Assembly: GCA_016788425.1 (NCBI GenBank)
Contig: JAEURQ010000002.1
Span: forward strand, 434,001 to 498,000
Length of the DNA stretch: 64,000 nt
Source of the DNA: Chthonomonas sp.
Lineage (GTDB): Bacteria > Armatimonadota > Fimbriimonadia > Fimbriimonadales > Fimbriimonadaceae
Direction: 5' to 3'
Of the stretch, positions 55,896 through 59,320 are shown in pieces. A program made the position numbers and the translations under genes. The notes under the pieces are model-generated. The model did not search any database, was not told the origin of the DNA, and saw only the letters and a list, made by a program, of their open reading frames with translations. Each line of letters begins with the position of its first letter. The first letter of the stretch is position 1.

Positions 55896-56609
55896 ATGAT
55901 TTCAACAATTGCCCTTGTAGCCCTCGCCACGCCGCTCGTGGCTCCCACCATTGACGACTACATCCCGAAGTTCCGCGACGCCGCTTTTACCATGAAAGTA
56001 GGGCAGGCCAACTTTGCCGAACTCCGCAAGATCAACAAGGATTTCGCCGACTCGTACCGGTTTAAGACGACCGACGTGAAGATGAAGGAGCCGTTTAAGT
56101 TGCGCGTCGAAGGGAAACTCGATGGTAGCAGCATCATGTATATCATCAACGGCAAGAACAAGCTGGTGAAGGTGCCGCGCTCCAAGATCAGTTTCCGCGA
56201 CAACGTGGCCAACAGCCCCGGCAAGATCCAGACTCCGCTCGATTTTGGGCTGATCACGGCTAGTATCTTCGATGATTTCTACCGAGCCTCGTTCGTGCGG
56301 AACGACCGCGCCACCGGCGACGTGGTATTCGATCTCACCTACGAACCCCGATTTAAGGACAACACGCGCCAGCGCGTGTTCATTGAACCCACCACAAAGC
56401 TGCTGACGAAGCGCGAATGGTACAACCGGAAGGGCGATTTGATGGCGATTTTCACCTATGGCGGCGCCGCCAAGGATTCCGGTTCGGGCGTCTATTTCCC
56501 GACAACGCTGACCGTTCGCAACGCGGACAATAAGGTCGCCGGCACCGCCACTTACACCGATCTTAAGGTGAACGACGGGCTGAGCGAGAGCTTGTTTGAG
56601 CTGAAGTAG
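55896..56609 (+). CDS. LolA-like periplasmic protein
   Basis: 237 residues with a short signal peptide (ISTIALVALATPLVAP) and a run of long antiparallel strands (LRVEGKLDGSSIMYIING, VVFDLTYEPRFKDNTRQRVFIEPTTKLLTKREWY in pieces, GDLMAIFTYGG, GVYFPTTLTVRNADNKVAGTATYTDLKVNDG in pieces). This half-barrel order, ending in 'kvNxxlxxslFel', matches LolA/LppX/outer-membrane lipoprotein-sorting-like proteins, which carry lipids or lipoproteins. A small hairpin follows the stop. Confidence 0.7.
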   Translation: MISTIALVALATPLVAPTIDDYIPKFRDAAFTMKVGQANFAELRKINKDFADSYRFKTTDVKMKEPFKLRVEGKLDGSSIMYIINGKNKLVKVPRSKISFRDNVANSPGKIQTPLDFGLITASIFDDFYRASFVRNDRATGDVVFDLTYEPRFKDNTRQRVFIEPTTKLLTKREWYNRKGDLMAIFTYGGAAKDSGSGVYFPTTLTVRNADNKVAGTATYTDLKVNDGLSESLFELK

Positions 56610-56646: not shown

Positions 56647-57264
56647 GTGATCAATGAATTGTTAGCCGTTTTTGTCTTAGGGCAAGAAGACATTAGGCGT
56701 CCTAACTTGCTACGAACCTACGGAGAAGATACTTGGGAAATACCTTTTGTCTCCGCGCAACACGGTCGGTGGGCGATTGTAAGAGATGACCGTGGTGGCA
56801 ACGCTTACCTTGGCACTTTTGACGGTCGCAACTTTAAGCCTCGGAAGAGTTGGTTTTTACGCGAAGGGCCTCAAGACGGTCTAGACGATCGTCTTCGGTG
56901 CACAAAGTTTTGGTTCGTACTTGAAATGGCCGGGAAGTTGGCTGACTATTCAAAGGTCCTGGATCACAAGATGCGAGAGTGTCTGAGCTTCTATGGGAAG
57001 GTCGATGAATATGGTAGCTGCGACCGACCTGATACTGTTGTGATGTTGGTCAAGACCGAGACACCAGTCGTGATCTATCTCTCGAAAAACGTAGGCTTTG
57101 TGCGAGCCGTGGACAATCGCACGACGAGTGTTCGGCTTATTCATGGAAAACTTGTGTTTTCAATCACCAGGCGTGATTCTGTCCAAGAGACCAAGGCTCG
57201 CCTTCTTTCGGAGTTCTTTAACAAAAGTCACAGACTGTCGGCTTCTGCCCCAAGAGAATTATAA
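56647..57264 (+). CDS. Hypothetical protein, AT-richer gene
   Basis: 205 residues without signal peptide or membrane segment and without a family I recognise. The composition differs from the neighbours: more AT-ending codons (TTG, CTT, GTA, TTT, ATT) and many aromatic and basic residues (KFWFVLEM, RKSWFLREG). The GTG at 56647 is the most upstream start after the hairpin, and no clear Shine-Dalgarno is present. The base and codon use suggest recent acquisition. It is convergent with the c-di-AMP riboswitch. Confidence 0.55.
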   Translation: MINELLAVFVLGQEDIRRPNLLRTYGEDTWEIPFVSAQHGRWAIVRDDRGGNAYLGTFDGRNFKPRKSWFLREGPQDGLDDRLRCTKFWFVLEMAGKLADYSKVLDHKMRECLSFYGKVDEYGSCDRPDTVVMLVKTETPVVIYLSKNVGFVRAVDNRTTSVRLIHGKLVFSITRRDSVQETKARLLSEFFNKSHRLSASAPREL

Positions 57265-57298
57265 GGATCGCGAAGGGCCCATCTCCATAAAGCAAACC

Positions 57299-57319
57299 GG
57301 CCCCTCCATAGGAGGGGCC
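57299..57319. terminator. Strong 9-bp GC hairpin
   Basis: GGCCCCTCC and GGAGGGGCC enclose a 3-nt loop. On the plus strand it follows the AT-richer gene. On the minus strand it lies about 150 nt after the riboswitch aptamer and is followed by GGTTTGCTTT, so it could be the riboswitch terminator or a stop for both strands. Confidence 0.65.
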
Positions 57320-57459
57320 TTCTGCATAGGAGGTGCCCAGTTGAGGTCAGGAGCTCTGGGATGTGCGTGCATCTGTCAGACCGACCCTACTGGCAACAGC
57401 CGCTTATGCGGAAGGAGAGGTTTTGTAACCACGTCAAAGCCCGAAGGCCCCGACGGGGT

Positions 57460-57590
57460 ACTCCCGCTCGTCGACGAGGTTAGCTGCCGGGTTCGGGCCG
57501 AAAGTTACCCTAGAGCATGCGCTCATTCACCCCAGTTGGTGGGTCCCCCGCTCAAGCCTTGCGGCCTGATTAGACGTCCGCCGCATTTCG
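57460..57590 (-). ncRNA. Cyclic di-AMP riboswitch (ydaO/yuaA type)
   Basis: Read on the minus strand, the conserved blocks of this riboswitch class appear in order: CGTCTAATC (5' arm of P1), GAGCGGGGGACCCA, GGGGTGAAT (57525-57533), a variable hairpin, GGGTAACTTTC, then CCGAACCCGGCAGCTAACC and TCGTCGACG (57474-57496 and after), which closes P1. Spacing matches the Bacillus subtilis ydaO leader. c-di-AMP binding normally turns off genes for wall hydrolases or potassium/osmolyte transport. Here no minus-strand gene follows within 1.4 kb. The boundaries are approximate. Confidence 0.88.
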
Positions 57591-57641
57591 CTGGCGTCAC
57601 TTATGTTATACACCGTCAGGGGCGAAAATGTTCGGGCGATT

Positions 57642-58463
57642 TTACGAGTCTCGTACGGTAAATGCGCTCCGCGCGGTTTCCCACAGCCGCACTTCGGCGA
57701 GCTTTGCCGGCGTCTGACCGCGTAAGCGATCGAAGATCACCTGCGCCACCACCTCGCTGGTGGGGTTGAGACCCGCGAACTCGGGGATATCTTCGTTCAA
57801 GGATTTGTGATCGTAGCGGTCCACCACCCGGGCGTTCACCACTTCATCCAGCGCGAGCAGGTCGCAAATCCAGCCGGTTGTCGCATCCGGTTCGCCGGTC
57901 ACCGTGACTTCCAAAATGTAGTTGTGGCCGTGCCCGTTGCGGTTGTTGCACTTGCCGAAGAGCTCCTGATTCTCGGCGTCGCTGAGGGCGGCGATGTGCA
58001 GGCGATGGCTGGCGGCAAATTCGTAGGATCGAGTGAGGGAGATCATGGTGGGTTGGTCGGCGCGCCAAGCGCCCCAGAGGTCGGGCATTTCACGCAGAAG
58101 CAGGGAAGTAAGGCGCGCCTCGGCGGGTGGGTCGAGTTTGCGGCTGATGTAGTGGAGCAGATTCTCCAGACTCGGCGACGCGCTGGCGAAGTGCGCCACC
58201 TCGTCGTTGATGGACTTGCCGTTGAATTCGTCGGTCACCTGACGCCGGATCATGTCGTCGAGCGTTTTGATGTTGATGACCATGCCGTCGGCGGGGCTGA
58301 TCTCGCCGGCGAACGTGGCCTCAAGCGTGTAGTTGTGGCCGTGATTGTAAGGCGAGGCAATCGGCCCGAACAGCGCTTCGTTCTCGGCGGGCGTGAGGTC
58401 ACTCCGCCAATAGCGGTGCCCGCTGGCAAAAGTCACTTGTCGCGTTAACTCCACCACCGGCAT
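57642..58463 (-). CDS. Tandem PTPS/QueD-family protein
   Basis: 273 residues made of two 6-pyruvoyl-tetrahydropterin synthase/QueD domains. Domain 1 (1-135) has zinc-type His16, His41 and His43 (FASGHRYW, SPYNHGHNY) but lacks the catalytic Cys before HGH. Domain 2 (140-273) has His153, His178 and His180 and keeps that residue as Cys172 in FGKCNNRNGHGHNY. Both have the downstream D-x-x-x-L-N/I-N-D strand pairs (GKSINDEV, HKSLNEDI). The ATG at 58463 shares its A with the stop of the ABC permease (TGATG). A pterin or 7-deazaguanine role is likely; queG at 39 kb shows the cell makes queuosine. Confidence 0.87.
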   Translation of the reverse strand: MPVVELTRQVTFASGHRYWRSDLTPAENEALFGPIASPYNHGHNYTLEATFAGEISPADGMVINIKTLDDMIRRQVTDEFNGKSINDEVAHFASASPSLENLLHYISRKLDPPAEARLTSLLLREMPDLWGAWRADQPTMISLTRSYEFAASHRLHIAALSDAENQELFGKCNNRNGHGHNYILEVTVTGEPDATTGWICDLLALDEVVNARVVDRYDHKSLNEDIPEFAGLNPTSEVVAQVIFDRLRGQTPAKLAEVRLWETARSAFTVRDS

Positions 58464-59320
58464 CACTTCATTCTACGATACGGAACGCCAAGTGATGCGG
58501 GTTGCCGGGTTCCGCGACCCAGAATGATGAGCACAGCCAGCGCGCTGACATACGGCAACGAGACGAAAAGCTGGGGCGGCAAACCCCAGCCCATGGCCTG
58601 CGCGCGGTATTGCAGGGTCTCGACAAGGCCGATGAGCATGGCCGCGAGCACCGCGTAGGTCGGCGACCAACGCCCAAACGTGACCATGGCAAGGGCCATA
58701 AATCCGCGCCCGGCGACCATGTTCTCGGCGAAACTTTGGGCCACCCCAATGCTCAGGTGCGCGCCGCCGAGCCCGGCGAGGGCGCTCGCTAACACCACGG
58801 CCTGCAGCCGCACGCGATTGACGCTGGTTCCCGAGGCGCGTAGGGCCTCCGGGTTTTCGCCGCTCGCCCGGGCCAGCAATCCCCAGCGGCTGAACCTCAA
58901 CAGCCACCCCGCGCCCACGACAAGGACGAGCATGAGGATGACCACGGGGTCGATACCGCCGATCTTGGGCAGTTCGGGCAGGCTCAGCAGCTCGCCGCTC
59001 CGTCCGAATTGGGCGCGGAACACCGTGCTTGTCACGCCGAGCATCGTGAGGTTGATCGCCGTGCCGATGACCACTTGATCCAGCGCGAGCCAGACCGTAA
59101 ACAAGGCTTGCAAGAGGCCGATGGCAACGCCGGCGACGATACCGGCGAGGAGCCCGAGCCACGGATCTCCGATGGTGAGTGATACCAAGGCACCGGCTAG
59201 CGCCCCGCCCAGCATGGTGCCTTCCAGGCCGATATTGAGCAGGCCCGCGCGTTGGTGAATCACCTCGCCGATGGCGGCCAGCGCGATGGGCGTGGAGAAC
59301 AGCAGAATCAGCGCAATCAC
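58463..59320 (-). CDS. Nucleoside ABC importer permease 2
   Basis: Inner-membrane permease of the BMP/PnrA-type importer (YufQ/NupQ-like), 285 residues with about eight helices. Family segments are AAIGEVIHQRAGLLNIGLEG near the start, ALDQVVIGTAINLTMLG, and the cytoplasmic loop ASGENPEALRASGTSVNRVR, which contacts the ATPase. The GTG start overlaps the other permease (GTGA), and the stop overlaps the PTPS gene. Confidence 0.9.
   Translation of the reverse strand: MIALILLFSTPIALAAIGEVIHQRAGLLNIGLEGTMLGGALAGALVSLTIGDPWLGLLAGIVAGVAIGLLQALFTVWLALDQVVIGTAINLTMLGVTSTVFRAQFGRSGELLSLPELPKIGGIDPVVILMLVLVVGAGWLLRFSRWGLLARASGENPEALRASGTSVNRVRLQAVVLASALAGLGGAHLSIGVAQSFAENMVAGRGFMALAMVTFGRWSPTYAVLAAMLIGLVETLQYRAQAMGWGLPPQLFVSLPYVSALAVLIILGRGTRQPASLGVPYRRMK

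Follow-up and report, generated by a model that had tools for sequence, protein, structure and literature searches.

A conserved free-standing c-di-AMP riboswitch RNA of Fimbriimonadaceae as a candidate small RNA directed at Shine-Dalgarno sequences

What does a riboswitch control when no gene follows it? To our knowledge, almost every riboswitch has been interpreted as a switch in cis for the gene that comes next. In the window, the whole 64,000-nucleotide stretch of Chthonomonas sp. DNA that we analysed, a c-di-AMP (ydaO/yuaA) riboswitch aptamer lies on the minus strand at 57456..57586, and the open reading frames of the window include no gene downstream of it on that strand for more than 1.4 kb. 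An earlier note on this DNA had described the aptamer as intact, and a covariance search bore this out: the full-length RF00379 match (57586-57456, minus strand, model positions 1-134) scored 80 bits against a gathering cut-off of 38, with E-values of 5.6e-17 for the whole window and 4.1e-19 for the local stretch alone, which places the element in that family. No Rfam family besides RF00379 was found in 57230-57700. The same genome encodes a diadenylate cyclase (DAC) domain (PF02457, 131 bits), which makes c-di-AMP synthesis plausible, as the note had supposed, and with the conserved blocks intact in the alignment the aptamer probably binds c-di-AMP.

The upstream gene on the minus strand (57642-58466), which encodes two PTPS/QueD-like domains, ends before the aptamer. 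The downstream genes, a 205-codon open reading frame (56647-57264) and a LolA-like gene (55896-56609), lie on the plus strand, in agreement with the note's view that there is no target gene in cis. The 205-codon gene had no Pfam match, is convergent with the putative RNA, was called AT-richer in the earlier note and was possibly acquired.

The aptamer appears to be the 5′ part of a free-standing minus-strand RNA of about 0.3 kb (57290..57598), delimited by a promoter-like element, the RF00379 match and a terminator. The -10-like element TATAAC (57605..57610, read as TGTATAAC) is a putative promoter that would place the start near 57598. A CGCC...GGCG hairpin (57579..57596) precedes the aptamer, and relatives have similar hairpins with other stem letters, e.g. 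GGCUGCAAAGCC and CGCUC..GAGCG. Directly 3′ of the aptamer, folding predicted a UUCG hairpin without a U-tract (57433..57454), at the position where a sister family has an early terminator region. The middle domain contains a GAUG-CACGCA-CAUC hairpin (57360..57373), recognised from sequence and folding, and its CACGCA-type motif recurs in several type II relatives. It is followed by an anti-Shine-Dalgarno (anti-SD) octamer, CACCUCCU (57328..57335), with a near-invariant core in relatives; an identical octamer is contained in the 3′ end of the genome's own 16S rRNA (GGATCACCTCCTTTAA), so that the RNA carries the SD-complementary segment expected of an SD-targeting small RNA. An intrinsic terminator stem-loop of nine pairs (57299..57319), followed by GGTTTGCTTT, closes the unit. 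This terminator, which the earlier note had missed, was the sole one that the scan found in 57200-57700, and relatives have corresponding terminators. All these elements are on the minus strand.

The predicted fold of the window RNA had a z-score of -2.4, and in the ensemble only about half of the anti-SD segment was unpaired (per base, 0.25-0.89). In relatives, the distance from aptamer start to U-tract was 248-371 nt. Among 52 free-standing relatives, 48 had a TANNNT element before the aptamer, versus 24 in shuffles, and 35 had a hairpin 5′ of the aptamer, versus 21, the latter a modest enrichment. By inspection of frames, no conserved long frame was seen within the window RNA, and the gene after it was not conserved. 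A small peptide encoded in the RNA was considered and set aside, since no conserved frame was seen and an apparent MHAH.. motif proved to be a hairpin loop. The unit is a candidate for discrete transcription from its own promoter to its own terminator.

Two kinds of loci became apparent when we oriented the aptamers of relatives and read the sequence that follows them. One is the ordinary cis leader, and in at least 40 of 71 loci of this kind GGAGG and then an open reading frame of at least 60 codons shortly follow the aptamer. The one further c-di-AMP aptamer of the window's own genome (L033) is of this kind, preceding a 130-codon open reading frame that has a GGAGG Shine-Dalgarno sequence and matched no Pfam family. 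Cis-type riboswitches of many Fimbriimonadaceae (e.g. L033, L045, L075 and L131) precede short open reading frames of about 90-130 codons, whose products begin MLTEFEVRRR.., MSFVSQIMRKAS.. or MKLLEKAES... The free-standing kind, to which the window locus belongs, has no such gene and consists of the aptamer, 50-190 nt, usually (A/G)CACCTCC, a strong hairpin and a T-rich tail. It was found in exactly one copy per genome in 45 Fimbriimonadaceae genomes (39 picked by script and six added by eye), and the architecture was also present in seven genomes of the sister family. The CCUCC lay inside the terminator loop in two further genomes. Three genomes of one genus (L124, L125 and L138) kept the aptamer flank and middle hairpin without CCUCC, and their RNA may be a decayed or altered version. 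Elsewhere in Armatimonadota, 40 aptamer loci from outside the order were inspected, and none clearly showed such a unit. In one locus outside the order (L259, genome G113), the aptamer is followed by a T5 run (+54) and by ACCTCC (+100), and this locus could be a relative of the free-standing kind.

The anti-SD segment follows the aptamers far more often than expected by chance. Of 121 aptamers, 38 had the word CACCTCCT in the 250 nt downstream, compared to a mean of 0.37 and a maximum of 2 in dinucleotide shuffles and a single occurrence of the reversed word. Across 61 genomes searched, 11 family genomes had the 13-mer GCACCTCCTGTTG at the riboswitch locus; its other occurrences were sporadic and mostly in coding sequence. 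An extended anti-SD and terminator pattern gave eight matches in 84,980 species genomes, all in Fimbriimonadaceae/Armatimonadetes MAGs except one record titled Methanoregulaceae. This record, JADZEW010000026.1 (L179, titled Methanoregulaceae archaeon SJ84), carries a Fimbriimonadaceae-type RNA at the coordinates of a family contig (G011:C26) and is probably a mislabelled MAG.

The genes around the free-standing unit varied. The next gene was hisB in about 19 of the 45 loci, beyond the terminator of the RNA, while others had dnaK, the rpoB region, an ECF sigma factor, a fabG-like gene and others; the next gene was on the same strand in 36 loci and antisense in nine. Relatives in which the element precedes a conserved same-strand gene would have contradicted the earlier note; such an arrangement occurred only as synteny with hisB, which lies past the terminator. 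On the upstream side, sucD was present in 23 of the 45 loci, and many family genomes (e.g. L064, L061 and L049) have the small RNA gene between sucD and hisB. The hisB loci inspected had a TATAA(C/G) box directly before the start codon and no Shine-Dalgarno sequence, which suggests a nearly leaderless hisB mRNA there. We did not retain hisB or the his operon as the true target, given synteny in part of the loci only and the promoter-like box of its own.

In a relative of the same genus, nucleotide similarity to the window locus was confined to the RNA, of which BLASTN found the aptamer part only, and a global alignment extended through CTCCTTCCGC, GCACCTCCTAT and the terminator. The neighbours differ, with dnaK in the relative and a convergent gene in the window. 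Similarity confined to the RNA, variable neighbours, the -10-like element and the 5′ hairpin therefore point to a noncoding RNA gene, and the free-standing nature of the conserved unit is well supported by these comparisons. The earlier note had offered the displacement of a regulated gene by an insertion as one explanation; since relatives with quite different neighbours keep the aptamer, anti-SD and terminator, having no such gene is usual for the class rather than a local accident. Its other suggestion, a free-standing ligand-controlled RNA, provides the best reading, with gating as a putative feature.

The sister family (f5, same order) offers a possible route for such gating. In all seven of its RNAs, an intrinsic terminator ending in U5-U7 lay 56 to 65 nt after the aptamer; further on came GUCAGG...CGGUCA..., then ACCUCCUGAC, which was invariant, and another terminator. 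In most f5 RNAs, inspection showed that the flank 3′ of P1 (e.g. CGAAGCG) could pair with the early terminator's 5′ arm. A flank of this complementarity is the usual layout of an OFF attenuator, and the f5 riboswitch seems to be a ligand-controlled attenuator for making an anti-SD noncoding RNA. The early U-tract terminator was missing in the window's family, where a T5 run occurred in one of 45 loci, apparently incidentally. Gating in the window's family would thus be structural or take another route.

To assess the structure of the 3′ half, 18 aligned RNAs of the commoner subtype were analysed for covariation; the window RNA belongs to the second subtype, whose middle parts are less conserved, and across the two subtypes the middle domain could be aligned only poorly. 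The middle hairpin (GGGACAAUGUUGUCCC type) had two-sided changes in five of six pairs. Together, the middle and anti-SD hairpins had 17 two-sided cells compared to 6.8 in shuffled data, and none of 500 shuffles reached 17. A hairpin whose loop contains CCUCC, CAGCA-CCUCC-UGUUG, is one possible fold of the anti-SD; it is paired in 92% of cells with one-sided changes only. A competing partner, the aptamer 3′ flank (GCGAGAG), could pair with the anti-SD in 95% of cells, with no two-sided covariation in the aligned RNAs, and for this reason it was not accepted as a proven switch. The aptamer core GGGGUG was predicted to pair with the anti-SD segment in about a third of the RNAs. A ligand-dependent exchange of anti-SD partners is possible on these models.

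Potential targets were sought in the window's genome and in the family. Strong Shine-Dalgarno sequences are a minority, with GGAGG before 46 of 438 called genes, and such an RNA could therefore be selective. AGGAGGTGC sites were not enriched in the genome (19 versus 40 for the control), and the search for a conserved target mRNA in the family found none, so that the RNA lacks this mark of an SD-targeting small RNA. The best single match in the genome was a 45-codon lipoprotein-like gene whose Shine-Dalgarno sequence, UAGGAGGUGC, has 10 nt of perfect complementarity to the window RNA. This gene (L196 1355-1500; G000:C3 near 122,980) is preceded by a TATAAA-like box and followed by a terminator. 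It is a plausible target in its own genome and was rejected as a general one, not being conserved in the family. An extended target complementary to CACCUCCUGUUG was likewise dropped, as matches outside the riboswitch locus were mostly in coding sequence. Among GGAGG leaders, GGAGGUG occurred in eight of 40 cis-riboswitch mRNAs versus five of 46, for which we claim no preference.

The explanation that we consider fairly probable is a c-di-AMP-gated small RNA that pairs in trans with Shine-Dalgarno sequences; in the trans pairing itself our confidence is moderate. The 5′ half of the small RNA gene would be the c-di-AMP aptamer and the 3′ half the anti-SD segment with the terminator. Binding of c-di-AMP would set the amount of full-length RNA or the exposure of CACCUCCU, and the exposed segment would pair with GGAGG-type Shine-Dalgarno sequences of some mRNAs, blocking their translation or, less likely, freeing it. 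At the level of sequence, the aptamer, the terminator, the conserved anti-SD, the single copy per genome and the lack of a conserved downstream gene are established, and from them we infer that the RNA is transcribed on its own, that its ligand gates it, in which direction it responds and that it acts in trans on mRNAs. We give about even chances to the broader idea of a lineage-wide regulator in Fimbriimonadales, in which a riboswitch-gated trans small RNA with a copy of the 16S anti-SD would link the nucleotide second messenger directly, with no protein receptor in between, to the translation of distant mRNAs that have a strong SD.

The RNA could instead be a cis riboswitch whose conserved terminator is an attenuator with read-through to the next gene, often hisB, the gene having been lost or separated in the window. 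The frequency of hisB as next same-strand gene and the 36 of 45 same-strand neighbours fit this reading, but the other next genes are unrelated, nine are antisense, and the inspected hisB loci have their own box and no Shine-Dalgarno sequence. In the sister family, moreover, the U-tract attenuator precedes the anti-SD, which is followed by another terminator, and the conserved CACCUCC is left unexplained; we consider this reading unlikely. A decayed orphan riboswitch, or an antisense regulator of the 205-residue gene as the earlier note proposed, would suit the minus strand empty of genes for more than 1.4 kb. However, the terminator (57319-57299) lies beyond the 3′ end of that gene (57264), so that the RNA stops about 25 nt short of it with no overlap, and the architecture is kept in 45 and 7 genomes with other neighbours, which leaves either version hardly credible.

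Two further explanations keep the RNA free-standing and give the anti-SD another role. As a reservoir or sponge, the RNA would store c-di-AMP and its 3′ part would merely end and stabilise it. A free-standing, single-copy RNA with an intact aptamer suits such a function, which has a precedent (PMC3627812), but the conserved anti-SD octamer, the covarying middle domain and the early attenuator of the sister family would all be needless, and we regard storage as quite improbable. It is similarly doubtful that the 3′ segment works inside the RNA only, as a partner of the aptamer core GGGGUG or the 3′ flank GCGAGAG, with incidental likeness to 16S rRNA and another output, e.g. protein binding. The predicted core pairing in about a third of members and the flank pairing kept in 95% of cells speak for an internal partner; the partners, however, vary between members while the octamer stays, and the flank pairing is without two-sided covariation.

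Known ydaO/yuaA (RF00379) members regulate adjacent downstream genes (PMC7266159). The window unit has the same aptamer sequence and structure but differs in ending with an anti-SD and a terminator, and no same-strand gene is directly controlled, given its own terminator and the variable neighbours in relatives. The merRNA of Bdellovibrio, found in Bdellovibrio only, is a free-standing noncoding RNA with a c-di-GMP riboswitch and a proposed reservoir (PMC3627812). Both are free-standing cyclic-dinucleotide riboswitch RNAs with no conserved open reading frame downstream, and in the window RNA none was seen within or after the RNA by inspection of frames and neighbours. Compared to merRNA, the window RNA type has c-di-AMP as its ligand, about 50 genomes, a conserved anti-SD and, in the sister family, an attenuator. 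Our search, confined to the open-access literature, turned up neither a description of a free-standing c-di-AMP riboswitch RNA nor a paper joining Armatimonadetes, riboswitch and c-di-AMP. If true, the union of a conserved c-di-AMP aptamer with an anti-SD small RNA would define a class of trans-acting riboswitches that is absent from the literature searched. It would offer a concrete path, open to testing, by which a second messenger reaches translation, and other orphan riboswitches may conceal small RNA genes.

In EutX/Rli55, a B12 riboswitch controls the production of a noncoding RNA by termination, and the RNAs capture the antiterminator protein EutV. The window RNA would share this riboswitch-to-noncoding-RNA logic, differing in its ligand, c-di-AMP, and in its output, an anti-SD segment resembling those that pair with mRNAs. 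RsaE-type small RNAs of Gram-positive bacteria have a C-rich loop complementary to Shine-Dalgarno sequences and no aptamer. The SD complementarity is common to both, and the window RNA joins its CCUCC segment to a c-di-AMP aptamer.
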